Positions 6,650 through 64,000 of a DNA stretch of 64,000 nucleotides are shown in pieces. Under the pieces are notes generated by a model. The model worked only from the letters and a program-made list of their open reading frames with translations, ran no database searches and was not told the DNA's origin. Every line of letters starts with the position of its first letter. The first letter of the stretch is position 1. Source of the stretch: Beroe forskalii (Eukaryota; Ctenophora; Nuda; Beroida; Beroidae); assembly GCA_011033025.1 (NCBI GenBank), contig WFMF01000049.1, positions 310,001-374,000 of the forward strand. The letters are read 5' to 3'. A program made the translations under genes and the position numbers.

Positions 6650-7148
6650 CATATCAGCTCGTTGTAGCCGTATACGTAGAGTCGAGTACTCGACAGTTTT
6701 TCCTTGGTAACAAGCCGCATCATCCCGATCCAGGACTGGGGAATGAAATTACCGGTGATTACCGCTTAATACCGTTTTTCATCTTTTCGGACCGTTCTAA
6801 TGCAAAGTGGGAGAATACCAGTAATAACCGGCATTTTCTGCTGCATTATACTGTGATTTACCAGAATTACAAGTACCGCTTATTACCGCTTTTTCGGACC
6901 CATCCTCTCACACCTGTCAGTTCCGTGTCGGCAGCCAAAATAACCTTTTACAATGCTTATCAGGTCCATTGTTTCGCATCCTTCAATTTCAAATTCAACT
7001 CCAAGGACGAGCATAATCCCCTGTCCTTTATCAATTCTTATCACCGCTTTATCAGGTCCATTGTTTTTCATCCTTCAATTTCAAATACAAGTCCACGGTG
7101 AAGATTACCGGTAATGGCAGTATCCAAGTAGGTCAGTATCCAAGTAGC
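6650..7148 (+). other. Spacer Q of the element, carrying a frame open in all three copies
   Basis: This block is shared by the three copies (also 18,931-19,390 inverted and 22,822-23,304). It starts with the palindrome GTCGAGTACTCGAC at 6,681-6,694, which has the same letters as the satellite, and contains several TTACCGG/TACCGCTTA phrases. A short direct duplication of CAGGTCCATTGTTT occurs inside. A frame of 150-180 codons (FFIFSDRSNAKWENT, then HYTVIYQNYKYR) stays open in each copy, with the ends differing; in copies 2 and 3 it runs into the satellite. I recognise no domain. Because the copies are nearly identical, the shared frame alone is weak evidence of coding. Confidence 0.6.
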
Positions 7149-10100
7149 GTGACTCGACTCAACTCGACGACTCAACGACTCGACGACTCGACTCGACTAG
7201 ACTCGACGACTCGACTCGACGACTCGACTCGACGACTCGACTCGACGACTCGACGACTCGACGACTCGACTCGACGACTCGACGACTCGACGACTCGACG
7301 ACTCGACGACTCGACGACTCGACGACTCGACGACTCGACTCGACTCGACTCGACTCGACGACTCGACGACTCGACTCGACGACTCGACGACTCGACGACT
7401 CGACGACTCGACTCGACGACTCGACGACTCGACTCGACTCGACGACTCGACTCGACGACTCGACGACTCGACGACTCGACTCGACGACTCGACTCGACGA
7501 CTCGACTCGACGACTCGACTCGACGACTCGACTCGACGACTCGACGACTCGACTCGACGACTCGACTCGACGACTCGACGACTCGACTCGACGACTCGAC
7601 TCGACGACTCGACTCGACGACTCGACTCGACGACTCGACGACTCGACGACTCGACTCGACGACTCGACTCGACGACTCGACTCGACGACTCGACTCGACG
7701 ACTCGACTCGACTCGACTCGACGACTCGACTCGACGACTCGACGACTCGACGACTCGACGACTCGACGACTCGACTCGACGACTCGACTCGACGACTCGA
7801 CTCGACGACTCGACTCGACGACTCGACTCGACTCGACTCGACTCGACGACGACGACTCGACTCGACCTCGACGACGACTCGACTCGACGACGACTCGACT
7901 CGACGACTCGACTCGACGACTCGACTCGACGACTCGACTCGACGACTCGACTCGACGACTCGACTCGACGACTCGACTCGACGACTCGACTCGACGACTC
8001 GACTCGACGACTCGACTCGACGACTCGACTCGACGACTCGACGACTCGACGACTCGACTCGACGACTCGACTCGACGACTCGACTCGACGACTCGACGAC
8101 TCGACGACTCGACTCGACTCGACGACGACTCGACTCGACGACTCGACGACTCGACTCGACGACTCGACTCGACGACTCGACTCGACGACTCGACTCGACT
8201 CGACGACGACTCGACTCGACGACTCGACTCGACGACTCGACTCGACGACTCGACTCGACGACTCGACTCGACGACTCGACGACTCGACGACTCGACTCGA
8301 CTCGACGACTCGACTCGACTCGACGACTCGACTCGACTCGACGACTCGACTCGACGACTCGACTCGACGACTCGACTCGACGACTCGACTCGACGACTCG
8401 ACGACTCGACGACTCGACTCGACTCGACTCGACGACTCGACTCGACGACTCGACTCGACGACTCGACTCGACGACTCGACTCGACGACTCGACTCGACGA
8501 CTCGACACGACGACTCGACGAATCGACTCGACTCGACGACTCAATTTGGCGACTCGACTCGACGACTCGACTCGAACACTCGACTCGACGACTCGACTCT
8601 ACTCGACGACTCGACGACTCGACGACTCGACTCGACTCGACTCGACTCGACTCAACTCGACTCGACTCGACTCGACGACTCGACGACTCGACGACTCGAC
8701 GACTCGACGACTCGACGACTCGACTCGACGACTCGACTCGACTCGACGACTCGACGACTCGACGACTCGACTCGTCGACTCGACGACTCGACGACTCGAC
8801 GACTCGACTCGACGACTCGACGACTCGACGACTCGACGACTCGACTCGACTCGACTCGACAAGTTGTCGAGTCGAGTCGAGTCGTCGAGTCGTCGAGTCG
8901 AATCGTCGAGTCGAGCCGCGAGTCGAGTCGTCGACTCGACGTCGAGTCGTCGTCGAGTCGAGTCGTCGAGTCGTCGAGTCGTCGAGTCGAGTCGACGAGT
9001 CGAGTCGTCGAGTCGTCTCGTCGAGTCGAGTCGTCGAGTCGAGCCGAGTCGTCGACTCGAGTCGTCGACTCGAGTCGTCGACTCGACGTCGAGTCGTCGA
9101 CTCGAGTCGTCGAGTCGAGTCGTCGACTCGAGTCGACGTCGACTCGACCTTCGACGAGGAAAAATCCCTCGACGACTCGACCGACAACTCGACACTCGAC
9201 GAAACTTTTCGATTTTCTCGACGGCTCGTCTAAGTTTCAACTCGATAATAGACGCCTCGACTCGACTCGACTCGAAATCGACGACTGCAAGGCAATTTCG
9301 ATTCAGCAACTCGACTATCCGTTTCTCGACGACGCGACGAAATTTTTGAACGAATCGACGACTCGTCCGACTCGACGACTAACATAATTTCGACTCACGA
9401 CTCTGCTCGACGACCGACTCGACGACTCGATTTTCTCGACGACTCGACGACTTTGATAATCGATCAATCGAGTCGACGATTCGATCAAAACAGCCCATGG
9501 CGACGAAAACTTTCGGTTTCTTCAACGAATGAATCGACTCTCGACAATTTAGTACTCGACTAATCGACGATACAACAACTCGCCTCGACGATTTTGAGTT
9601 TCGATATCGAAACTCGCGTCGACGACTCGACTAACATAATTTGACTCGAAACTCGACGAGCTCGACCTCGACGACTCGACGACTCGACGACTCGATACTC
9701 GACTAGTATCGATTCAGTAAAACGATTCGATCTCGACAGCCTCGACCTCGACGATTTCGACTCGACGACTCGACTCGACGATCGATCGGTTCGAATCGAC
9801 GATTTGATGACGACTCGACGACTCGAAAATCGACGACTCGACTCGACGACTCGCAGGATCAAGTTCGAATATGAATTTGAATGACGAAACTCGACTTTCG
9901 ACTCGACAATTTGACGACTCGACTTACTCGACTCGACACAGTGAGGGACGACTCGGACGATTTCGACTTCTTCGAATTGACGACTGGAAATCGACGATGA
10001 GAGAGCGACCCGACTCTTAAAAATTGAGAAAACGCCCTCGACGACTCGAATTGACGACTCGAGAAAACACTCGACTCACTAAAAGGCTCGACTCGACTCG

Positions 10101-16545: not shown

Positions 16546-19500
16546 CAGATTAGAACAACGCCACACTAGGTATTGAATTCGCCACACTATAAAAATGATC
16601 GCATTGTTAAGATGATATTCGCCACAGGCCACACCCTATGCGTTAACTTTCTAAGAATGCGTGTAAAGTGCAGGGTAATATTCGCCACACTAGCATTATA
16701 TTCGCCAAAGTGGTCGCATGTTTGTAAACACACGCAATGCTAAGCAATTATTCGCCTGTTTTATAAACAATCTTCGTAGACTCTATTTCGCCGTGTTAGG
16801 AAAATATTCGCCTACTAGGTAACACATTCATTCTTAGAGAATAATTCGCCGTGTTTGGAAAGTATTCGCCTACTGGGTTACATATTTATTCTTAGAGAAT
16901 ATTTCGCCGTGTTCGGAAAATATTCGCCTTAGAAAATATTTCGCCGTGTTAATAAAATATTCGCCGTATGTTATGATAACATGTACACTCTAAACTAATT
17001 AAGTTACACATAGCAGCCCCACCCTGACCTTGATTCACATCTGTACAAAATGTGTTCTAACTTGACTCCTGAAAATTTTCTATTTCATATTTTGAACAGA
17101 TGATGTGTTGATGTACACAAAGTTGCACTTAGCAATACATACCTACTTACCTACTGTGTATGTAAATTTAAGCATTCATATTTTTCAGATTAAACATATC
17201 ATAATGGCCCGTTTTTATATCATGAGGGCATCACATAGTACGACAGAGTGAGATTGGGGAACGGACATTTCATCTCGCGACACGTTATATCACGACATTT
17301 CATCTCGCGACATTTCGTCTCTGACACTTCATCTCAAAGTACGACATTTCATCTCGTACTGTAACTTGATTGTACTGTAAAGTACGAAATTTGATCTCCC
17401 GAGTGCGGATTTTCATCTCAAAGGGTACGGCACTCCATCTCTTACTGCAACTTGATTGTACTGTAAAGTGCATCATTTGACATCGAAAGTACAACATTTC
17501 ATATCCAAGGCTACGACACTTCATCTCTGGGTATGGCACCTCTTATCAGGGAAGAACACTTGCTCACTTGATATCAGGGTACGTCACTTTATCTCACACT
17601 GCGACATTTCATCTCTGGGTACGACACTTCATCTCAAAGTACGACACTTCATCTCAGGGTACGACGCTTCATCTCTGGGTACGACACTTAAAATCTCAGA
17701 CTACGATATTTTATCTCTGGATACGACACTTCATCGTAGACTTTAATTCGCTGTGTTAGGAAAATATTCGCCTACTGGGTAACACATTTATTAATACAGA
17801 ATATTTCGCCGTGTTAGGAAAATATTCGCCTATCGGGCAACACATTCATTCTTAAAGAAATTTTCGCCGTGTTTGGAAAATATTCGCTTGCTGGGTATCA
17901 AATTTCTTTTTGGAAAACATTTCGCCGTGTTAGATAAAATATCGTCGTATGTTATGATTACAATATGTACACTCTAAGTTACACACATCAACATTCAACC
18001 CCACCCTCACCTTGATTCGCATCTGTACAAAATGTGTTCTAACTTGACTCCTGAAATTCTATTTCATATTTTGAACAGATGATGTATCAATGTACACGAA
18101 GTTGCACTTAGCAATCCAGAGCTACTGTGTATTATGTAAATTTAAGCATCTATTATACTTTTCGGATTAAACACAATGTCATGTTATGTCATATTGGTTC
18201 GTTATAGCCTAACAGAGAGCCCGTTTTCATATGATCATAGGGGCATCACATAGTACGACGGAGCGAAGTTTAGTCGTCGAGTCGAGTCGAGTCGTCGAGT
18301 CGAGTCGTCGAGTCGTCGAGTCGAGTCGTCAAGTCGAGTCGTCGAGTCGTCAAGTCGTCGAGTCGTCGAGTCGAGTCGAGTCGAGTTGAGTCGTCGAGTC
18401 GTCGAGTCGTCGAGTCGAGTCGTCGAGTCGTCGAGTCGTCGAGTCGTCGAGTCGAGTCGTCGAGTCGTCGAGTCGTCGAGTCGAGTCGTCGAGTCGAGTC
18501 GAGTCGAGTCGTCGAGTCGTCGAGTCGTCGAGTCGAGTCGAGTCGTCGAGTCGAGTCGTCGTCGAGTCGTCGAGTCGAGTCGTCGAGTCGAGTCGTCGAG
18601 TCGAGTCGTCGAGTCGAGTCGTCGAGTCGAGTCGTCGAGTCGAGTCGTCGAGTCGAGTCGTCGAGTCGAGTCGTCGAGTCGAGTCGTCGAGTCGAGTCGT
18701 CGAGTCGAGTCGTCGAGTCGAGTCGTCGAGTCGAGTCGTCGAGTCGAGTCGTCGAGTCGAGTCGTCGAGTCGAGTCGTCGAGTCGAGTCGAGTCGTCGAG
18801 TCGAGTCGAGTCGTCGAGTCGAGTCGTCGAGTCGAGTCGTTGAGTCGTCGAGTCGAGTCGTCGAGTCGAGTCGTCGAGTCAAGTCAAGTCGTCGAGTCGT
18901 TGAGTCGTCGAGTTGAGTCGAGTCGGGCTACTTTGATACTGACCTACTTGGATACTGCCATTACCGGTAATCTTCACCGTGGACTTGTATTTGAAATTGA
19001 AGGATGCGAAACAATGGACCTGATAAAGCGGTGATAAGGATTGATAAAAGGGCAGGGGATTATGCTCGTCCTTGGACTTGAATTTGAAATTGAAGGATGC
19101 GAAACAATGGACCTGATAAGCATTGTAAAAGGTTATTTTGGCTGCCGACACGGAACTGACAGGTGTGAGAGGATGGGTCCGAAAAAGCGGTAATAAGCGG
19201 TACTTGTAATTCTGGTAAATCACAGTATAATGCAGCAGAAAATGCCGGTTATTACTGGTATTCTCCCACTTTGCATTAGAACGGTCCGAAAAGATGAAAA
19301 ACGGTAATTTCATTCCCCAGTCCTGGATCGGGATGATGCGGCTTGTTACCAAGGAAAAACCGTCGAGTACTCGACTCTCCGTATAAGGCTATAACGAGCT
19401 GATATGATATTATGATGTGTTTAATCTGAAAAATATGAATGCTTAAATTTACATACACAGTAGGTATGTATTGCTAAGTGCAACTTTGTGTACATCAACA

Positions 19501-22168: not shown

Positions 22169-25100
22169 CAGATTAGAACAACGCCACACTAGGTATTGAA
22201 TTCGCCACACTATAAAAAATGATCGCATTGTTAAGATGATATTCGCCACAGGCCACACCCTATGCGTTAACTTTCTAAGAATGCGTGTAAAGTGCAGGGT
22301 AATATTCGCCACACTAGCATTATATTCGCCAAAGTGGTCGCATGTTTGTAAACACACGCAATGCTAAGCAATTATTCGCCTGTTTTATAAACAATCTTCG
22401 TAGACTCTATTTCGCCATGTTAGGAAAATATTCGCCTACTGGGTAACACATTCATTCTTAGAGAATAATTCGCCGTGTTTGGAAAGTATTCGCCTACTGG
22501 GTTACATATTTATTCTTAGAGAATATTTCGCCGTGTTCGGAAAATATTCGCCTTAGAAAATATTTCGCCGTGTTAATAAAATATTCGCCGTATGTTATGA
22601 TAACATGTACACTCTAAACTAATTAAGTTACACATAGCAGCCCCACCCTGACCTTGATTCACATCTGTACAAAATGTGTTCTAACTTGACTCCTGAAAAT
22701 TTTCTATTTCATATTTTGAACAGATGATGTGTTGATGTACACAAAGTTGCACTTAGCAATACATACCTACTGTGTATGCAAATTTAAGCATTCATACTTT
22801 CCAGATTAAACACATCATAATATCATATCAGCTCGTTATAGCCTCATACGGAGAGTCGAGTACTCGACGGTTTCTCCTTGGTAACAAGCCGCATCATCCC
22901 GATCCAGGACTGGGGAATGAAGTTACCGTTTTTCATCTTTTCGGACCGTTCTAATGCAAAGTGGGAGAATACCAGTTATAATAACTGGCATTTTCTGCTG
23001 CATTATACTGTGATTTACCAGAATTACAAGTACAGCTTATCACCGCTTTTTCGGACCCATCCTCTCACACCTGTCAGTTCCGTGTCGGCAGCCAAAATAA
23101 CCTTTTACAATGCTTATCAGGTCCATTGTTTCGCATCCTTCAATTTCAAATTCAAGTCCAAGGACGAGCATAATCCCCTGCCTTTTTATCAATCCTTATC
23201 ACCGCTTTATCAGGTCCATTGTTTCGCATCCTTCAATTTCAAATACAAGTCCACGGTGAAGATTACCGGTAATGGCAGTATCCAAGTAGGTCAGTATCAA
23301 AGTAGCCCGACTCGACTCAACTCGACGACTCAACGACTCGACGACTTGACTCGACTCGACGACTCCCGACTCGACGACTCGACTCGACGACTCGACGACT
23401 CGACTCGACTCGACGACTCGAGCTCCTGACGACTCGACTCGACGACTCGACTCGACGACTGACTCGACGACTCGACTCGACGACTCGACTCGACGACTCG
23501 ACTCGACTCGACTCGACTCGACGACTCGACTCGACTCGACTCGACGACTCGACGACTCGACTCGACGACTCGACTCGACTCGACGACTCGACGACTCGAC
23601 TCGACTCGACGACTCGACTCGACGACTCGACTCGACGACTCGACTCGACGACTCGACGACTCGACGACTCGACTCGACGACTCGACTCGACGACTCGACT
23701 CGACTCGACGACTCGACTCGACGACTCGACTCGACGACTCGACTCGACGACTCGACTCGACGACTCGACTCGACGACTCGACTCGACGACTCGACTCGAC
23801 GACTCGACTCGACGACTCGACTCGACGACTCGACTCGACGACTCGACTCGACGACTCGACTCGACGACTCGACGACTCGACGACTTGACTCGACGACTCG
23901 ACTCGACGACTCGACTCGACGACTCGACTCGACGACTCGACTCGACGACTCGACTCGACGACTCGACGACTCGACTCGACGACTCGACTCGACGACTCGA
24001 CTCGACTCGACGACTCGACTCGACGACTCGACGACTCGACTCGACGACTCGACTCGACGACGACTCGACTCGACGACTCGACTCGACTCGACGACTCGAC
24101 GACTCGACTCGACGACTCGACTCGACGACTCGACGACTCGACGACTCGACGACTCGACGACTCGACTCGACGACTCGACTCGACGACTCGACGACTCGAC
24201 GACGACTCGACTCGACGACTCGACGACTCGACGACTCGACGACTCGACTCGACGACTCGACTCGACGACGACTCGACGACTCGACTCGACTCGACTGACG
24301 ACTCGACGACTCGACTCGACGACTCGACTCGACGACTCGACTCGACGACTCGACTCGACGACTCGAATCGACAACTCGACTCGACGCTCGACTCGACGAC
24401 TCGTCTCGACTCGACGACTCGACGACTCGATTCGACGACTCGACTCGACTCGACGACTCGACTCGACTCGACTCGACGACTCGACGACTCGACGACTCGA
24501 CGACTCGACGACTCGACGACTCGACGACTCGACGACTCGACTCGACTCGACTCGACTCGACGACTCGACTCGACTCGACTCGACTCGACGACTCGACTCG
24601 ACGACTCGACTCGACGACTCGACGACGACTCGACTCGACTCGACGACTCGACTCGACTCGACGACTCGACTCGACTCGACGACTCGACTCGACGACTCGA
24701 CTCGACGACTAAACTTCGCTCCGTCGTACTATGTGATGCCCCTATGATCATATGAAAACGGGCTCTCTGTTAGGCTATAACGAACCAATATGACATAACA
24801 TGACATTGTGTTTAATCCGAAAAGTATAATAGATGCTTAAATTTACATAATACACAGTAGCTCTGGATTGCTAAGTGCAACTTCGTGTACATTGATACAT
24901 CATCTGTTCAAAATATGAAATAGAATTTCAGGAGTCAAGTTAGAACACATTTTGTACAGACTACAGATGCGAATCAAGGTGAGGGTGGGGTTGAATGTTG
25001 ATGTGTGTAACTTAGAGTGTACATATTGTAATCATAACATACGACAATATTTTATCTAACACGGCGAAATGTTTTCCAAAAAGAAATTTGATACCCAGCA

Positions 25101-39200: not shown

Positions 39201-40410
39201 TTGATTGGCGTGCAGCATCCAACTTTCGGGTCGATTTTGATGATTATTTACTGTATATTATATTGTATTTAGAAGCCCTCTGCGGTACCCTTCATGGGTT
39301 TTCAAAAAAAAAAAAGTCTACTGGTTCCCATACCTGCATTTCCCTGAGAATAACATGTCGTTCACGCTCAATAGCCCCCTCCTCGAGTCTTGGGTTTTGC
39401 AGGATATCAGCCAACATGTCCATTGACCTGTCTACGTCCTTAGCAAAACACTTTGCGTAGTAGACAGTCTGTTCTCTCGACGTGTAGGCGTTCAGGTGTG
39501 CTCCCATGTTTTCTACTTCTATTTCCAGTTCATGTTGAGACCTGTTCTCTGTACCCTGTAAAGGAGGGTCAGTAGAGTGCGAGGGATTTGGTTACCATGG
39601 GGGTGCCTAGACTTAATAGACACGAACTTATACCAGTGCGAAATAAGTAGGAACCATGTCTTTATACCTGATTCCTCTTTAGGACAAAACAAGCACAACG
39701 ATATCGACAAAAATATCCCGCACATGATCGACGTCAATACAATCTGAATGCCCAAACCAACCCAACACATAGGGGGGCAACCCCCATGAACCCCCAAATA
39801 TTCAACCCTCATTTGCTATTTTTTGATACCCCTGGCCTACATACCTTGAATACGAGATGTTCTAGGAAGTGGGCTACACCGTTGTTTTGTTCGTTTTCCC
39901 ATCGCGTCCCTGCGTCAATCCAGAGCCCTACGGTAGCGGTGGGCGTGTCAATGTACTCACTACACACGTGCATACCGTTACTGAGACGCGTAACTTCCGT
40001 CGGGTTCACATTCAGGAGCGACTGAGGAAGAAAAACAATTTGAAGCTATCAATTTAGAGTTATGTACAATATTTGGTGATACGCCAGACAGCAATGGACA
40101 GGAAGGGGTAAGGGTAGCTTAAACAGTGTATAAATGTGTATATTGTATAACAGGGTATAGTAATGTGGGAAGAGAATGATCAACATTCAACATTTATTGG
40201 AAATGCAATGTCAGGTCACAGTGCAAATTGGGAGTGAAATTCGTCATTCGCAAAACAATCGACTTTCTTTGAGAGTAAGTGAACATAATTTACCTTTCTG
40301 TAGGAGTCTGACGTAACGATGGGTGCTACAGCCTTGCTGGAGTTTGCCCTGCTCTGCACCAACGTCCTAAGAGGACGCACCAAGGCACTTTGGACTCGGG
40401 GTAATGTCAT
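36250..40410 (-). CDS. PMPCB: Mitochondrial-processing peptidase subunit beta, N-terminal 271 residues
   Basis: Beta subunit of the matrix peptidase that removes mitochondrial targeting presequences (family M16 metalloprotease). Exons on the minus strand: 40,294-40,410 (start ATG; Arg/Ser-rich, acid-poor presequence [20 protein letters not shown]), 39,845-40,021, 39,334-39,555, 36,588-36,706 and 36,250-36,427; all phases agree. The inverted zinc site is intact: HFLEH at residues 90-94 and Glu170, 76 residues later, in LREMQ. The sequences [14 protein letters not shown] and [15 protein letters not shown] are typical. The gene stops after YTGSY at the donor GTGAGT (36,249); the remaining roughly 200 residues of a normal subunit are not found, and MTUS-like exons follow instead. 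Its third intron holds an inverted promoter module and a LINE ORF1 retrocopy. Confidence 0.93.
36928..37950 (-). promoter_or_regulatory. TATA-box module with 17-bp minisatellite (right, minus orientation)
   Basis: Mirror of the 30,165-31,195 module. In minus-strand order: shared start ATGGATGGAACGCGCG near 37,950, about 70-bp tandem boxes at about 37,640-37,440 (GTGGTGTCAACG, GGTATGTG), TATA box in ACATATATAAAGGCC at 37,417-37,431, then the 17-bp unit GGTACCGTTGTTAATAA (read as TTATTAACAACGGTACC on the plus strand) about 24 times from 37,328 to 36,928. It lies inside the third PMPCB intron, oriented the same way as that gene, and could act as an internal promoter for the downstream exons. Confidence 0.65.
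38117..39315 (+). mobile_element. LINE ORF1-only retrocopy with poly(A) tail
   Basis: One intact 294-codon frame (38,117-39,001) has a coiled-coil-like first half ([20 protein letters not shown]) and a second half of the RRM-like ORF1 type found in CR1/L2 LINEs ([17 protein letters not shown], then [18 protein letters not shown], then [15 protein letters not shown]). No endonuclease or reverse transcriptase follows; about 300 bp of non-coding sequence leads to a 12-13-base A run at 39,304-39,315. This suggests a processed, ORF1-only copy, comparable to half-LINE elements. The A run ends about 18 bp from the minus-strand splice donor of PMPCB exon 3 (39,333). Confidence 0.75.
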
Positions 40411-41254: not shown

Positions 41255-42466
41255 GTCTTAAACCCTTACCTTCCAAAAGTGGGTAGCAGGAGTAGCCAGG
41301 CTACCGAGGGGAAAATTTGACAAAACCGAGGGGATTTTCATGTCAAGATGCAGGCACGCGCAGCGTGCGTGCCGCGCCGAAATCTCGAAAAAAACTTCGA
41401 TTAAAAAAAATCAACTTTATCCACAACTAAAAGTTATCTAATAACAACGTAGATGAATTTTAACTGTAAAGATTCACTAAATAGGTGGGGAATACAAGGG
41501 AAGTGAAGCTGAGGGGATTATGATGTGATGACTAGATGGGGTGAGGGGAATCAAGGTGAGGAGATTTATAAGGTGGGGGAATTAAGGTGAGGGGAAGTAA
41601 GCTGAGTGGACGTAAAGTGAGAGGAATTAACTAATTATGATGGAGAGAAGTGTGATGAGAGCAATTAACTAATAAGGTGAAGGGAAGCGAGGTGAGGGTA
41701 GTTCACTTGGTGATTCGTGATGAGATGTAAGGTGACAGGAAGTGAGGTTAGGAAAGTACATTACCAGATTGAACTCAGAGGCAGATTCAGGTGCAAAACC
41801 CATAAAAAATTTTCGCCTGCGGCGGGCTGTTCTGATCCAATAATGTCTCTAACCTGTCCCTTGACACAATCTCAGATGTAAAACTTTCACAAATGGTTAC
41901 CTACGGCTGGTCGCTGGATGTTTTAATCACATTATACATTGACCAAATTGATCTCAGAAGCAGATTTAGGCACATAACCTTAAAAATTTTCGCCTGCGGC
42001 GGGCTGTTTTGATCCAATTATATGACTACTTGACTAGATTGATCCTAGACATATCTCAGATGTAAAACTTTCACAATTTTTGCCTACAGTATGGCTGGAG
42101 GTTTTAATCACATTATACATTGACCAAATTGATTTCAGAAGCAGATTTAGGCACATAACCTTAAAAATTTTCGCCTGCGGCGGGCTGTTTTGATCCAATT
42201 ATATGACTAAATTGATCCTAGACACAATCTCAGATGTAAAAATTTCGAAATTTTTGCCTTCGGCTGGCTGTTTAAATCACATGATAAATAACAAAATTGA
42301 GGAGGATTAATGTGCAAAACCTTGAAAATTTTCGCCTGCGGCGGGCTGTACTGATCGAATTATGTCACTTAATTGGCGCATGGCTCCAAGCAAGCTTGAA
42401 ACCGAGGGGATTTTAATATCTGCTACCGAGGGGATTTTCATTTTTGGAAGGTAAGCTTAAACCAGT
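41255..42466. mobile_element. Element with inverted ends and four internal tandem repeats
   Basis: The left end CTTACCTTCCAAAA (about 41,267-41,279) is mirrored at the right (TTTTTGGAAGGTAAGC, about 42,441-42,456); both lie next to TTAA. The phrase CTACCGAGGGGATTTTCAT recurs near both ends. Inside, a unit of about 180 bp with AAAATTTTCGCCTGCGGCGG occurs four times (near 41,805, 41,980, 42,160 and 42,330). The middle 41,480-41,760 is a purine-rich GTGAGGGGAA stretch. Inverted ends plus a short tandem core recall pearl-type non-autonomous elements of invertebrates; the class is an inference. Confidence 0.6.
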
Positions 42467-42601: not shown

Positions 42602-45600
42602 TCACTTGTGAGAGGTTACGAAGGCAGCAATGAACTGGATAACGCCCAGGGCTGCCACGTGAACCACCACTTCATCAAACCGGGCATCCTCGTAGGGGTC
42701 TGAGAAGCCACTGACGCCCTTAACGGAGACGCAGGGGGTCCCGGACTTGCTGCACATGCTGTAGAGTTGCAGAGTCTCAGTGTCACAGCCCAGCATCGTC
42801 TGAAGCAGTGCAGGAGTTTGAATCGATACAAAGAAAGAATTGTAAATCAAAAGATAACTCAAAAGAAAACTGTCTATTGTCAGTTTAAATGGTGACAACA
42901 AGTCATTACTATTTAAGTAACATCATAATATCATACAGTATAAGATTGAAAGCGAAGCACTAAAGCAGACGTGTACAATATCACCATGCTTACCTCTGGG
43001 CACAATTCGTGTCTATTGAACGCCATGCCAGGTTGGTAGGGTATATCAGAGGCTGTCATCGTTCCAACGTGAACTTTCGGATCAAACTTCCTCCTCTTCA
43101 AGTTTACCTCTTTCGATGGAAGTGACTGTACAGCAGTCTGGTGGGAAAGGCATTTAAAATTAAAATATGCAATCGTAAAATGGGTCAATTTGAATTTTGA
43201 AGAAAATGAAAGTTTTGAATTCTGTAACCATCCAGATGCATTATAAATCTAGTAATATCAGATAATTATAATACCTTTAAGTTTATATCGAGAGAGTTGG
43301 TGATTCGGTCGAAGATGAGATTCATGTTTGCTGAACCGAGGCACGAGTACTTGGCACTGAAGAGCTTCATGTTCTCCATCAAGCCAGGACTATCGTACCC
43401 CACACTGTGATCATACTCAATTTCCTTCAGCCATGCCGACTCTTCTGGGCGGTCCTGCAGGAAAAGTTCGATAAATCATTCCGTGTTTATCATCGCTTAT
43501 ATTACCACCAAATTTTGCGAATTTTGTGTGATGCAACTGTGATATAGTTAGGCTAGGCAGTAGGCAGACACCAGGTACTGGTAGAATGTAAAACTATATA
43601 GAATTCGGCATTAGCTATGATCATAAAAACTGACTTATGTAGAATAAGAGGTTGATCATTGATCAACCTCTTATTCTACATAAGTCAGTTTTTGAAATTG
43701 AAAAGGATCATAAAACCTAATAAAATTTCATCATGTTAAGAATTTACTCTGAACCAGGTTCGCTGCATTTTGATGATTCGGCAGCTTGTTTTATGTTTGT
43801 GTTTATTATTATTTATTGCGTTATTGTGCTGCCTTAGCCTTAGGTTCTAAAAAACAATTAGGTAGTGAGACCCCAACAAACCAATTTGACTTCCAGGATG
43901 AGCTTGCTGATCCACAGTAATACTTGGGAGGCTGTGAAGTGAGGGGCTTTGGGAATTAACCCAGGAAGTTTCCACAGGGCATCAAGTTCTCTGTCACTCC
44001 TCTCCATTGACTGAACCAGAGGAAGGATGTTTGGAGAGACAGAATATTTCACATTTCCTATCGATGATTCTTCTGACACTATGATGTCACCAAGAGATAC
44101 CTAAAACAGTTAGATTGACATTCCATTCAAATTGTTACAATTTCATACTTTTCAATGCCAGGTAGGTACAGTCAACTGAAGTTGGAAAACAGCGTAATCT
44201 GGAAACTATAAACTAATTTTTGTAGTAATGAGAACTTTATCAGGGAAATTAAGGGAGTAAAGGAGTGCATAAGATAAAATAGAACGAAGGTGAGTAAAAA
44301 ATATTTCAATTGCTATTTGTCTCGATCACCTTACAAATTACAAACCTTTCCCCTTACACCATGACAAATTCCACTTGATATAACCAGATGAGGGTTAAAT
44401 CGATTGATAGAGTCTTGCAAACAATCTATGAAGGTCGTCAAAGGGTAACAAACAATAACTATGGCATCATAAAGTGTTACAAAATGAAACTCCATATCTT
44501 TAAGAATCCTCAGGGAGCTTGCTTTTGATTCTCCATCAAGCAGATGTCGGATTTTTTCTTGAAAAACATGGCTCTGTTGTCTACTTCCACATATGACAAT
44601 AATGGTTTTGCGACTTTCACATAACTGTTTTGGAACTTCTAAGCTCAAACTTCCTGGTTTAATATACTCAGAATAATTTTTAGAAGAACATTCATGGATG
44701 AGATCTGAGATTTCCTGAAGGATTGTTGAAGCAGTTGGACGTAGGTCATGATCTTGGAAACATGCCATTGATGCATCTAAATACTGTTTGGCAACAGGCA
44801 GGGGCCATTGTACTCCCAATGGTGAAATCATATCAAAATCTTCAGGATGGGAACTAAGTTTATGCTCCACAAGTCCAACCAAAGATTGGTTTTGATAGCC
44901 ACGATTTGGATCAAATGCACTCAAATTGGTGATCAACTCTAGCAGTAGAACACCATAACTGTATATATCTGTTTTTGTTGAGATTTTTCCTCTTGCAGCT
45001 TCTGGAGAAATATATCCCATAGTACCTTGTAAGCGATTTGTTTGCACAATACTGTTGGAATGATCTGATCCAAGCCGGGCCAGCCCAAAATCTCCTATTT
45101 TAGCCTGGTAATCATTAGTGAGGAGAACATTGGCAGACTTGAGATCTCTGTGAATCAATGGCTTTTCTGATGCGGTATGAAGATATACCAAGCCCTTAGC
45201 AATGTCTTCAGATATTTGAATTCTTCTATTCCAGGATATGTTGGCTGATTCTGGAGATCCAAGCACATGGGCAAGAGATCCCTTTTCCATATAATAGTAA
45301 ATGAGACAAGGTGCTCTTGGATCAAGAGAATATCCAACAAGTTCAAGTAAATGAGGATGCCGATATTTAGATAGAGTCATGACTTCAACAGCAAATTGAC
45401 TCAAACCAATTGAACGTGCCTGCATATCACTATTTAGATTTAACTTCTTGATGGCAAAAGTTGTATTCTTCAAATCACCTTTAAAGACTGTCCCAAATGA
45501 ACCCATTCCAAGTTTGCAACTGCCAGCAACCTTTGAATCACTAAAATTATAGGTAGCAGAGCACACCTCATCATAACTGAATTCAACCAAACCTTTATTA

Positions 45601-46139
45601 CGTAGAGATACTAAAATCTCATCTGTTAAATTTTCCTTTTGTTGAGCAACAATGGAAAGGCTAAGATTGTCATTAGTGTAACAATTTTGTGTATTTGAAG
45701 CAGAGTTCCTGCTTGAAGGGTCAATGATCTTCATAATAGAACGTGCATCATGGTTGGGTATCTGGGGATGACTCTGCTTAACAGCTGAAGATGTCACGGG
45801 CCTTGATGAAAGATTAAGGCTTTTAGCAAGAGACTGAGAAACAAGACCACTCTTTTTCAGGAATGTAAATGCCTCAATATTCTGGACTTTGTATATTATA
45901 GTGAAGAGTTCATCAATATTCTTTCCTGTCATAGCCAAGTCTGTTAAGAGACTCCTAGATGGACTTCCATCACTGCAAAGTGCCTTTCTTTCAAACCCAG
46001 ATATATCTAAGGCATTATATATGTCAAGCTTTGCAGCCACAGCACGCCAGTTTTGCTTAGGATCATCACTGGAATCAAGAATCTGACTGAGCTCAGAAAT
46101 ACATGAGTAAGGTAGATCACTGATTTTTCTTGGAGCCAT
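42602..46139 (-). CDS. Death domain - IRAK/Pelle kinase - nucleoside phosphorylase (PNP_UDP) fusion protein
   Basis: Five exons, all phase 0 with GT-AG introns: 44,346-46,139, 43,882-44,100, 43,275-43,454, 42,994-43,137 and 42,602-42,799; 844 residues. Residues 1-100 look like a Death domain of the Pelle/IRAK type (WRAVAAKLDI, TIIYKVQNIEAFTFLKK). Residues about 204-482 form a kinase with all key residues: G-loop GMGSFG (211-216), Lys231 (AIKK), Glu252, HRDLKSAN with Asp332, DFG at 350-352, GTMGYISPEA, and the IRAK-like Tyr stretch LIYYYM. Residues 512-844 match the nucleoside phosphorylase fold: HLVISSGICHG, VSLGDIIVSEE (599-609), VHVGTMTASD (753-762), CDTETL with Glu787, and VKGVSGFSDPY (805-815). 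IRAK kinases act below Toll/IL-1 receptors through Death-domain assembly; phosphorylase-fold domains serve as effectors in several immune ATPases. The fusion implies kinase-controlled nucleoside cleavage, but that is inference. Confidence 0.9.
43625..43693. repeat. Perfect 69-bp palindrome in an intron
   Basis: Two 34-bp arms meet at a single central base (43,659) without any mismatch. It lies in the second intron of the Death-kinase-PNP gene (43,455-43,881). If transcribed it would form a perfect 30-plus-bp hairpin with almost no loop. I see no further inverted ends outside it. Confidence 0.92.
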
Positions 46140-46947: not shown

Positions 46948-46984
46948 AAAAATCAGATAAAAATCAGATAAATGTTTTCTCATT

Positions 46985-48105
46985 ATTGGAGCCCCACAAG
47001 GGTCTATCCTGGGACCAATATTGTTCATTCTCTACACCAAGGAACTTCAATACATTGCAAAAAGACATGGATTTTTAATTCACCTTTATGCAGATGACAC
47101 CCAGCTGTATATCAGATTTGACCCATTATTTAAAGATTTTTCTGAACTAGAAGCACGAATCATAAATTGCCTTGAAGACATAAAATCATGGATGATGTCT
47201 AACCATCTGCAAGACAAGACTGAGGCACTTATTGTTAGAGCTAAAAACTACTATGACTCCCAAATGATTGAATCAATTGTTATAAGTCCAGATGCTGATG
47301 TATCAAATGGTGTAGTGAAGCCTTCTTCAGTTGTCAAAAGCCTTGGGGTACTATTTGATGATTATTTAACACTAGAAAACCAAATCAATGCAATGATTCA
47401 ATCATGTTATATCAACCTTCATAACTTAAGAGCAATAGGATCAAAATTGAGTTTCAGTCTAAAGAAACAGCTCATTCATTGCTTTGTTTTCTCAAAACTG
47501 GACTACTGCAATGACTCTTGTATGGACTGCCTAATTGTCTTATTTCTCGGCTTCAGAAGGTTCAGAATGCATCTGTGAGGTTCCTGTTTGGTAAGAAAAT
47601 TGGCAAATGGGAACATGTCACACCATTTCTGAAAGAGGCACACTTTCTGCCAGTGAAGTATCGCATTGAGTTTAAGATTGCCTTACTAGCATACAAGTGT
47701 ATAAACAACTATGCTCCAAAATATCTCAAAGAGCTACTCCATGTGAAAAGCCAGCCTCAAAGTTTATCATTAAGGAATGACTGTGACTATTTTCTGCTTG
47801 ATGTTCCTAAGGTACCTCAGCTCAACAGAACAGAAAGAGCTTTCAGTTATGCTGCACCAATTGTCTGGAATAAACTGCCATATTTACTCAGAACATGTGA
47901 CAATCTTAATGTTTTTAAGAAAAAGCTTAAGACATATTATTTTGATATTGCCTTTGAATCCCTTAAATAAGTATTAGAAGTATTTGACTATAACTTTTAC
48001 GAGTCGCTTTAGATGGCTGGATTTTGTTTTAAAGCATAGCGTCTTTAACTTAGGATCTTTAATAGCTTTAAAGCGATACATAAATGTAGATTATTTATTT
48101 ATTTA
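46985..48105 (+). mobile_element. 5'-truncated CR1/L2-like LINE, reverse transcriptase part
   Basis: It starts inside the polymerase domain at APQGSILGPILFILYTKEL and keeps the catalytic box HLYADDTQLYI. The frame breaks near 47,515 (LDYCN then out of frame) and resumes from 47,518 as YGLPNCLISRLQKVQNASVR through RAFSYAAPIVWNKLPYLL to a stop at 47,970. A TTTA microsatellite tail is at 48,088-48,104. The copy is 5' truncated with a single frameshift, so it is inactive. Confidence 0.87.
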
Positions 48106-61511: not shown

Positions 61512-64000
61512 TTTAATAATAATAATAATAAATTGAAATTTAGGAACACTGCTTTTAAGGCATGCTTATACTCAGCAGTGTTAAACATCTTAAAAACTCA
61601 TAATTTAAAATCAATAATTTAACTATCATAAACTAGTGCCTTCTTTAAACCTTCTTAACATGAAATCCATAGAAAAAAACACCTTACACAAAACAAAAAA
61701 TTATCATCATGAAAGAAGCACAAGCGGCCAAGAAATCATTTCGTCAGTTTCATAGTGTCTGATAAGGAAAGTTCAAACAGATAGGTTTTCAAAAGTTTTT
61801 TGAACACATCTGTGCCAGAAGCTGTAGTAATATGGTGAGGGAGGTTGTTAAATACCTTGGGACCAATAAATGAGAGGCTTCTTTGTCCAAGCCTAGTATT
61901 CATCACAGGAGTCAATAGTCTTGGTGTATAACCTTGATAGAGTAGGTAAACATGTCCTGGATATACATAGGAGCCTGACCATTAATGGCCTTATATGATA
62001 AAAAGTGCAATTTTAAACACAATACGTTTTTTGATCTGAAGCCAGTGAAGATTATGAAGATCATCATCTACATGATCATATTTATACTTGCCAGTGACCA
62101 ATTTTGCTGCAGAATTCTGAATTATCTGTAGTTGATTGACAAGCCTTTCAGCAATCCCATAGTATAGACAGTTACAATAATCCAAACAAGAGATAACCAT
62201 GCTATTCACAACTAACTTCATTTGATCCTTTGTGAGCAGAAATCGAACTTTACAGAGGTTCCTAATGGTATGGAATGCATTCTTCTTAAGGGAGACTATT
62301 TGTTTCTCAAAAGTTAATCTTTGGTCCATTTGAACACCAAGATTCTTGACCACTGAAAGAAATCTTATGGTTGTCCCACTAAAAAGATTAACACCCTTGA
62401 TGACAATTTGTTGGAGGATTTTACTTGAAGCAAATATTGTGATCTGAGTTTTAGGCTCATTGAGTTGAAGGTAGTACTTAGACATCCATTTTCGTATCAC
62501 ATCAAAACAGTCATTAATCTGATTTGTCAATATGTCAACCTGGTCTGATGGAGGGAATTTCTTTGTGACCTGATGATCATCAGCATAACCGAATATTGTG
62601 AACCCTAGCCTTTGTACACATAGGTAAATGGACCGGATGTAAATGTTGAATAAGACTGGGCCTAACACTGATCCCTGGGGGACCTCAAATTTGATTGTGA
62701 TTGTTTCTGAAGTGATAGAACCAAGTCTTATTCTCTGTGAACGGCCTTTGAGGAAACTTACAAACCATGCTAAAGCAGTCCCTCTAATTCCAATCTCATA
62801 CTTCAGAATTTTCAACAGCAGTGAATGATCCACAGTATCAAAGGCAGCACTGAGGTCTAAGAGCATCAGTACTGTTGCTGTATTTTCATCAGCAGCTATC
62901 AGTAAGTCATTGACAATCTTTACCAGTATGGTTTCAGTACTGTGATTTTTCTTATAGGCAAACTGGTCTGGGCAATGAAGGTTATTATACTGCATATGAG
63001 TATCAAGCCTTTTCAAAACAACACGCTCAACTAGTTTACCCAAAAGGTGAGGTTGGAAACAGGGCGATAGCTGCCAAGACTATTTTCATCAAGTTTTTAT
63101 CTTTAACAGAGGTGTAATGTCAGCTAGTTTCACACCATCCATAGAGCCTGAACTCAAGGATAAGTTAACCAAGTCAACAATTGTGGGAAGTAGTGAGGCA
63201 ATGTTATCTTCAAGCAATTGCTGGGGCAACATATCAGCAGGAGAACATTTTATGCCACTCTCAGCAATGATATCCTTTATCTCATCAACAGTTGTTGGCA
63301 AAAACTCATAGAGTGTTGAGGAGGTTTCATGAGACTGGAAAGGGGACTCTGGTGCAATTTCAGGATCAAACTTCTCACGGATTTTATCAATTTTGTCTAC
63401 ATAGAACTGATTAAAGTCACTGGCAAGTTTTGCAATATCTTCAGTTTCAGGCAGAGTGTGGATCTTTTGCTTGTCAAGCACCTTGTTGACAATACTGTAA
63501 AGATTCCGAGTGTTCCCTTTAGATTGCTGAATAACATTACCTAGATAAGCCTTTTTCTTATTCTTTGCTAACATAGTTGTCCTCCAGCACAGTTCTTTGT
63601 AAAACAGGTATGCATCCTCTGAAACATGCTTTGTCCTTTCTGCTTGACGTCGAAGTTTCCTCAATTCCCTGTACTCCTTATCAAACCATGGTGCTTTATC
63701 CACAACAGAAATGAATTTGTCGACCATAGGAGCATGATTGTTCAGAAGACCACCAAGTGCAGATGACAAATTATTAACAGCTATTCCAAAACTCTTGCTT
63801 GTGGAGGTTGAAACAAGTAAGTCCTGGAGGTCAGATGAGAATTCTTCTTTATCAATTTTAGCTAGATTCCTAACCTGGATCTTTTTGAAGTACTTACCAC
63901 TCAACTGAACATTCAATTCACAAAAAACTGGATAATGATCAGATCCCAAGGAGTTGAGAGGATCAACACAAACAGAATAAGTCAATGTTTTGTTTAGTGA
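61512..64000 (-). mobile_element. CR1/L2-like LINE, long but frameshifted, running off the right edge
   Basis: Minus-strand order: end of the AP endonuclease (LGSDHYPVFCELNV) near 63,940, a linker (LRKLRRQAERTKHVSEDAY), then the reverse transcriptase with FAYKKNHSTETILVKIVND, LLDLSAAFDTVDH, VPQGSVLGPVLFNIYI and the catalytic box FGYADDHQV (about 62,580). The frame breaks near 63,060, near 61,991 and again near 61,900; the C-terminal FIGPKVFNNLPHHIT reads in another frame up to about 61,746. A TTA microsatellite at 61,512-61,530 marks the 3' end. The 5' part lies beyond the window. Dead copy because of at least three frame changes. Confidence 0.88.

Follow-up and report, generated by a model that had tools for sequence, protein, structure and literature searches.

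A conserved fusion of an IRAK4-type Death-domain kinase with a phosphorylase-fold domain predicted from the genome of the ctenophore Beroe forskalii

IRAK4 is a central kinase of Toll/IL-1 signalling, and its chain ends after the kinase domain. A gene of the ctenophore Beroe forskalii, located in the stretch of contig WFMF01000049.1 analysed here (64,000 nucleotides, positions 310,001 to 374,000 of the forward strand; hereafter, the window), appears to encode a protein of this type that continues into a nucleoside phosphorylase-fold (PNP) domain. The locus thus raises two questions, namely, whether a single protein indeed joins a Death domain, a kinase and a PNP domain, and if so, whether the added domain works as an enzyme. 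We found that the fusion is conserved among relatives of the gene, and that several residues expected of an active nucleosidase are replaced, which suggests a function of the PNP domain that does not depend on catalysis.

The gene runs from 46139 to 42602 on the minus strand, where all its features lie, and consists of five exons that encode 844 residues and a stop codon. Exon 1 (44346-46139) encodes residues 1-598, which comprise the Death domain, a linker, the kinase and the start of the PNP domain (~87 residues, 512-598, 44346-44606). The reading frame of this exon opens with the Met at 46139 and stays open past 44346; the codon immediately before the ATG is a stop in the same frame, so that exon 1 begins at that Met. 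The remainder of the PNP domain is distributed over exon 2 (43882-44100; residues 599-671, VSLGDIIVS and beyond), exon 3 (43275-43454; residues 672-731, insertions within the domain), exon 4 (42994-43137; residues 732-779, with an HVG motif) and exon 5 (42602-42799; residues 780-844 and the stop codon, with DTET and KGVSGFSD motifs). The lengths of all five exons are multiples of three, and the introns are all in phase 0, with GT donors and AG acceptors. The coordinates and domain limits of these five in-phase exons, as given in a preliminary description of this DNA, proved correct.

The Death domain and the kinase have the makeup of the IRAK4/Pelle family. The Death domain (residues 1-100, 45840-46139) matches the Pfam Death model (cut-off 22.6) at 24.0 bits in a scan of the N-terminus by itself and at 18.9 bits, below the cut-off, in the full-length scan. 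Its predicted structure is mostly confident (predicted local distance difference test, pLDDT, mostly 80-91, with two blocks at 61 and 69), and the closest folds to this model are the Death domains of IRAK4, of Pelle and Tube, and of the Myddosome. The kinase domain (residues 204-482, 44694-45530) is of the RD type, with the catalytic Lys and the HRD and DFG motifs intact. It matches Pfam PK_Tyr_Ser-Thr at 142.8 bits, and among PDB sequences, IRAK4 is the top match (184 bits), with all of the best 26 rows belonging to IRAK4. K231, E252, H330-R331-D332 and D350-F351-G352 are invariant across nine sequences of the family, as is Y281, which aligns as a tyrosine gatekeeper (CLIYYYM, compared to CLVYVYM in IRAK4, where we take the gatekeeper to be Tyr262). 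By sequence, therefore, the protein combines a Death domain of the IRAK/Pelle type with an intact IRAK-like kinase and a tyrosine gatekeeper, and differs from IRAK4 and Pelle in the addition of a C-terminal phosphorylase-fold domain of ~330 residues.

The evidence that this addition belongs to the same protein comes from comparison with relatives. When residues 500-844 served as a protein query, eight proteins (P0002-P0009) were recovered, each of them an open reading frame of the same exon. A search with a nine-sequence profile, in which the 7998 candidates sharing the most words were scored, yielded 15 proteins at the limit of 1e-60: the same eight, the more distant P0010 and P0011, and five kinases, four of them named as plant proteins and one unnamed. 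In the alignment, the Death domain, the kinase and the N-terminal part of the PNP domain lie in one frame in all ten relatives, counted as sequence clusters and not as species, and hence in 11 of 11 sequences with the window protein. The ten are 52-86% identical to it over exon 1. Among the four relatives scanned with Pfam, the Death domain scores above the cut-off in three (P0002, at 20.8 bits, falls below it) and PNP_UDP_1 is listed in none, so that the relatives are assigned a PNP domain by virtue of their match to the window protein.

The boundary of exon 1 is likewise informative. The PNP part in this exon ends in GICHGVRGK, and in nine of the ten relatives a Val (GTN codon) follows this point, as expected if the frame reads through a GT donor. 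P0010 is without the intron at this position: its uninterrupted frame of 789 residues extends across most of the PNP domain, and the final ~200 residues are 36% identical to the spliced product of exons 2-5 (204 columns, 135 bits, E value 2e-40 in a two-sequence BLASTP comparison). The possibility that the fusion is an artefact of exon joining is rejected by this single frame of P0010 together with the one-frame fusion in all ten relatives. The contention that no neighbouring genes had been falsely spliced together, made originally from the presence of PNP residues in the kinase exon, is borne out as well. Taken together, the comparisons confirm, at the level of sequence, a conserved one-gene fusion of an IRAK4/Pelle-type Death-kinase with a phosphorylase-fold domain.

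The distribution of identity along exon 1 suggests that the linkers drift and the phosphorylase part does not. Across nine exon 1 sequences, mean pairwise identity is 68% in the Death domain, 83% in the kinase and 76% in the N-terminal PNP part, as opposed to 54% and 45% in the linkers; in the core of the PNP part (residues 541-598), it reaches 83%, equal to the kinase, and 39 of the 58 positions are invariant. The genome also contains a second copy of the gene on a contig of 22.8 kb (C1079), in blocks that are 87-99% identical to the window and with exons 2-5 99-100% identical. A second functional gene copy was considered and rejected given the size of the contig and these identities, and the copy is probably the other haplotype. 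All splice sites of exons 2-5 are kept in it, and three of the four differences in these exons are silent. Exon 1 of this copy (L025, G000:C1079:14001-22816) has several small frame-breaking indels, which may be assembly errors. A search for exon 5 in other species gave no candidate.

What, then, is the third domain? The PNP_UDP domain previously proposed for residues 512-844 is recovered by profile search: Pfam PNP_UDP_1 (PF01048) matches in two stretches, at 26.8 bits in the full-length protein and 30.7 bits with the domain alone, above the curated cut-off of 25.1, which places the domain in the PNP_UDP superfamily by sequence. When the genome was searched exon by exon with PF01048, the gene was not listed at an E value of 0.001; hence, the match requires that the exons be joined. 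The other PNP-type matches of the genome, on contigs C328 and C880, are other loci, and the domain is accordingly not to be mistaken for a housekeeping PNP. NCBIfam MTAN matches it at 27.5 bits, and PADLOC models at somewhat higher scores: 35.6 bits for a CBASS phosphorylase-superfamily effector and 35.1 bits for PDC-M60C, PDC-M60 being a designation that we equate with Detocs.

Searches of plasmid sequences pointed in the same direction. With tblastn, the domain matched 28 records, all weakly (best E value 2e-3). Of these records, 17 are hypothetical and eight carry the annotation 'response regulator', and the remaining three are annotated SAVED, EAD1 and nucleoside phosphorylase, respectively. 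Eight of the 28 loci were taken for comparison, and PADLOC was run on seven of them (not on L004); all seven bacterial PNP proteins match the CBASS effector as well as PDC-M60C, the latter at 316-597 bits in five cases. The bacterial SAVED gene adjoins a CBASS cyclase, and five of the eight PNP genes stand third in a row of a large gene, a small gene and the PNP gene, which is the gene order of Detocs. One of these loci, on a Klebsiella aerogenes plasmid (L009), contains a Detocs-like operon in which the first gene is apparently split by an IS3-type element. In the control, E. coli MTAN found 208 records in the same plasmids, of which 114 reach a coverage of 80% or more, which indicates that housekeeping relatives were present to be found; among the matches listed (best 30 of 208), there was at least one 'response regulator', with an E value of 0.08. 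A search of a phage collection gave 14 records, all with E values of 3 or more: tail proteins, hypothetical proteins or unannotated records.

Direct comparison of profiles agrees with these searches. A profile of the eight bacterial immune PNPs scores the window protein at 54.6 bits, compared to 27.0 bits for a profile built from the E. coli enzymes MTAN, DeoD and Udp and 2.2 bits for the best of 200 shuffles, and the hhalign probability is 99.0 for the immune and 55.0 for the housekeeping profile; these figures are biased upward for the immune profile, which was built from the query's own tblastn hits and has more members, a bias of which the PADLOC, NCBIfam and Pfam scores are free. In the reverse test, a profile of the family scores the eight bacterial domains at 25.2-9.8 bits, with DeoD at 2.7 bits, Udp unlisted and the best of 550 shuffles at 2.8 bits. 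One of the two large insertions of the domain aligns with an insertion in two of the bacterial loci (L004, 3929-5494, and L006, 3743-5068), and the motif GICxGVRGKVxLGD is common to the window domain and the bacterial immune PNPs. The domain thus appears to be closer to the PNP effectors of bacterial anti-phage systems (Detocs-type, CBASS and EAD1) than to housekeeping PNP or MTAN, albeit by modest margins. The link to immune effector modules with a phosphorylase fold that had been drawn at the outset fits this result, the nearest profile relatives of the domain being immune effector modules.

Given this affinity, one might expect an active nucleosidase. We compared the domain with MTAN, in which, we assume, Asp197 and Glu12 are catalytic and Glu174 binds ribose. 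At the position of Asp197, the window protein has Gly810 (codon 42707-42709), and at that of Glu12, Gln522 (codon 44574-44576), a position occupied by Gln in nine and by His in two of the 11 family sequences. Met173 corresponds to T786, and the Lys of the KDD motif, invariant in the eight bacterial immune-type PNPs, to Glu816 (codon 42689-42691). The equivalent of Glu174, Glu787 (codon 42776-42778), is kept in the window protein and is Asn in P0010. A sequencing error at the catalytic Asp is unlikely given that the second haplotype also has Gly. The bacterial immune PNPs share 20 invariant columns, of which the window protein keeps seven, P0010 four and E. coli MTAN, itself a genuine enzyme, 14, where three of the columns are defined over seven sequences (L004 lacks that part) and the P0010 frame ends before the last three. 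Judged by the alignment, the putative active site lacks both the catalytic Asp and the catalytic Glu and retains the ribose-binding Glu; the central loop of the PNP fold appears to be kept, with the residues of the chemistry lost. These replacements speak against the initial proposal that Toll signalling enzymatically controls purine or nucleoside metabolism through this protein, and a kinase-linked pseudo-enzyme or nucleotide-sensing module fits the sequence better.

Because the catalytic residues are replaced while the N-terminal core is conserved to the same degree as the kinase, we consider a noncatalytic role of the domain most likely. The protein is probably a kinase of the IRAK4 type whose C-terminus carries a conserved pseudo-nucleosidase, serving as a scaffold or a nucleotide sensor. 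Under this model, the Death domain would bring the protein into a Myddosome-like assembly, with MyD88-like partners, as is expected from the family, and the intact RD kinase would trans-phosphorylate itself and its partners. The phosphorylase fold, which normally forms a dimer, trimer or hexamer, could provide an oligomerisation or docking surface that clusters the kinase or, alternatively, could be a nucleotide-binding sensor that gates it. Family searches of the genome gave two matches for TIR and three for Death, numbers that are lower bounds, as the Death search missed the window's own Death domain at an E value of 0.001. Two TIR reading frames lie elsewhere in the genome (L026 and L027), one with repeat-like helices and the other with its TIR domain in a longer protein; neither resembles MyD88 clearly when inspected by eye.

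Several observations weigh against a noncatalytic module of immune type. Among PDB sequences, the PNP part matches MTANs only (8 rows, E values 0.03-0.6, best 0.033), and the family profile scores MTAN at 8.9 bits, close to the lowest of the bacterial immune domains (9.8 bits). The PNP region of P0010 has no Pfam PNP match and no PNP model among its PADLOC matches listed (best 25 of 36), and its sole match in the plasmids is a weak one to MTAN, with an E value of 4. The overall mean pLDDT of the predicted structure is 40.5, the prediction being confident for the Death domain only and not for the kinase and PNP parts. The replacement of Asp by Gly is seen in Beroe forskalii only, on two haplotypes, since the P0010 frame ends before position 810 and the nine other relatives cover only the N-terminal PNP part. 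The alignment of the first beta-strand that equates Glu12 with Gln522 rests on a short stretch of identity, and a shift by one residue would place Ser523, still not acidic, at this position. Finally, Glu787 and much of the GIC-GVRGKVxLGD loop are kept, which leaves room for weak or altered activity of the domain.

Other readings of the gene may be considered. The most far-reaching, which we hold to be doubtful, is that in one animal lineage the Toll/IL-1-pathway kinase became a one-protein, kinase-linked counterpart of Detocs, in which an immune-type PNP domain binds or, by changed chemistry, cleaves a nucleotide, such that immunity and nucleotide state would be read or altered within the Myddosome. 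The main rival is the proposal that the domain is a functional effector enzyme whose active site has changed, and that recruitment and phosphorylation by the kinase switch on cleavage of ATP or another nucleotide, leading to self-sacrifice of the cell or to depletion directed against viruses, as in an animal Detocs within a single protein. The bacterial relatives found belong to Detocs-like, CBASS and EAD1 loci and are effectors of the ATP-nucleosidase type, and the kinase-like conservation of the PNP core along with the retention of E787 and most of the GVRGKVxLGD loop agrees with such an enzyme. However, Gly in place of the catalytic Asp on both haplotypes, the lack of the catalytic Glu in 11 of 11 sequences, the replacement of Met173 and of the KDD Lys, and Asn in place of the ribose-binding Glu in P0010 make this proposal unlikely.

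A decaying passenger, that is, an old fusion whose C-terminal domain is functionless and drifting, would account for the lost catalytic residues and for the lower identity to P0010 in exons 2-5 (36%, compared to 52-53% in exon 1). Nevertheless, a drifting domain is hard to reconcile with the 39 invariant positions of the PNP core, with a frame and splice sites of exons 2-5 that are kept on two haplotypes where three of four differences are silent, or with the 135-bit match of these exons to P0010, and we regard this explanation as quite improbable. Two neighbouring genes or alternative transcripts, in which the Death-kinase would terminate in intron 1 or 2 and the PNP-like exons would form a set apart, could invoke the AATAAA motifs of intron 2 as the end of a short isoform but are scarcely credible in view of the PNP residues within the kinase frame in all 11 sequences, the uninterrupted frame of P0010 that holds Death domain, kinase and most of the PNP domain, and the canonical phase 0 introns.

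Comparison with described immune systems sets the noncatalytic module in context. The PNP domain is nearest to those of the Detocs effector DtcC, the CBASS SAVED-PNP and EAD1-PNP proteins, by PADLOC, tblastn and profile comparison alike, and like them, the protein couples a signalling domain and a PNP domain in one chain. However, the catalytic Asp, Glu and Met and the KDD Lys are lost here, and the partner domains are a Death domain and a Ser/Thr kinase encoded in an animal gene, in contrast to the receiver or SAVED domain of the bacterial effectors. Detocs is a three-gene family, the best-described PNP effector of which is reported to cleave ATP (PMC11249213). The present gene is not a Detocs system: it is a single gene as opposed to a three-gene two-component phosphorelay with a receiver-PNP effector, and no receiver domain is found among the Pfam matches of the window protein at E values up to 1. 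The residue losses also argue against cleavage of ATP or dATP by the PNP domain.

In eukaryotes, PNP modules in immune-type proteins are already known (PMC11249213, PMC12881547). Fungal NLRs with an N-terminal PNP_UDP domain (PMC12881547, PMC4986451, PMC9815663) resemble the present protein in the use of a phosphorylase-fold module in an immune-type protein. In them, the module is combined with an NTPase and repeats, whereas the present protein joins a C-terminal, degenerate PNP domain to an IRAK4-type kinase. A precedent for an enzyme fold that signals without catalysis exists in the same complex, in the pseudokinases IRAK2 and IRAK3 (PMC7955167), with the difference that here the kinase looks active and the degenerate part is the added phosphorylase-fold domain. 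The words 'phosphorylase' and 'fusion' are absent from the main text of a paper on IRAK evolution (PMC3498205). Among the best-ranked papers listed from the openly licensed literature, no title or abstract start describes an IRAK or other Death-kinase with a phosphorylase domain, and 'IRAK4' and 'nucleoside phosphorylase domain' did not co-occur in the openly licensed literature searched. To our knowledge, no IRAK with an appended metabolic-enzyme fold has been known.

Some further features of the locus and its surroundings deserve mention. Intron 2 (43455-43881) contains two AATAAA motifs, at 43817 and 43807, where a shorter isoform could terminate, as well as an almost perfect hairpin, noted by eye, around positions 43625-43694. 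A few hundred bases downstream of the stop codon, at 41800-42400, short repeated stretches with TCGCCTGCGGCGGGCTG were likewise seen by eye. Farther downstream on the same strand, the interval 39295-40045 contains exons that belong to an M16 peptidase (Pfam PF00675), presumably of the mitochondrial-processing-peptidase type. Fragments of retroelements resembling long interspersed nuclear elements are present at 46961-47970 (recognised by eye from a YADDTQLY motif) and at 61994-63079 (with a match to RVT_1), and long minisatellite arrays occupy 7017-9384, 18238-19031 and 23202-24769, which translate into repeats such as LDSTTR from one strand and VESSRR from its complement. Rfam gave no match in the window at the gathering threshold.

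If the PNP domain is indeed a pseudo-enzyme, the protein would be a clear-cut case for studying how an inactive nucleosidase fold regulates a kinase with a Death domain; should the PNP domain prove active, Toll signalling and nucleotide depletion would be joined in one molecule. A conserved link of this kind would show that an immune PNP module was recruited into the core of a Toll-type pathway in an animal, beyond the NLR-like receptors.

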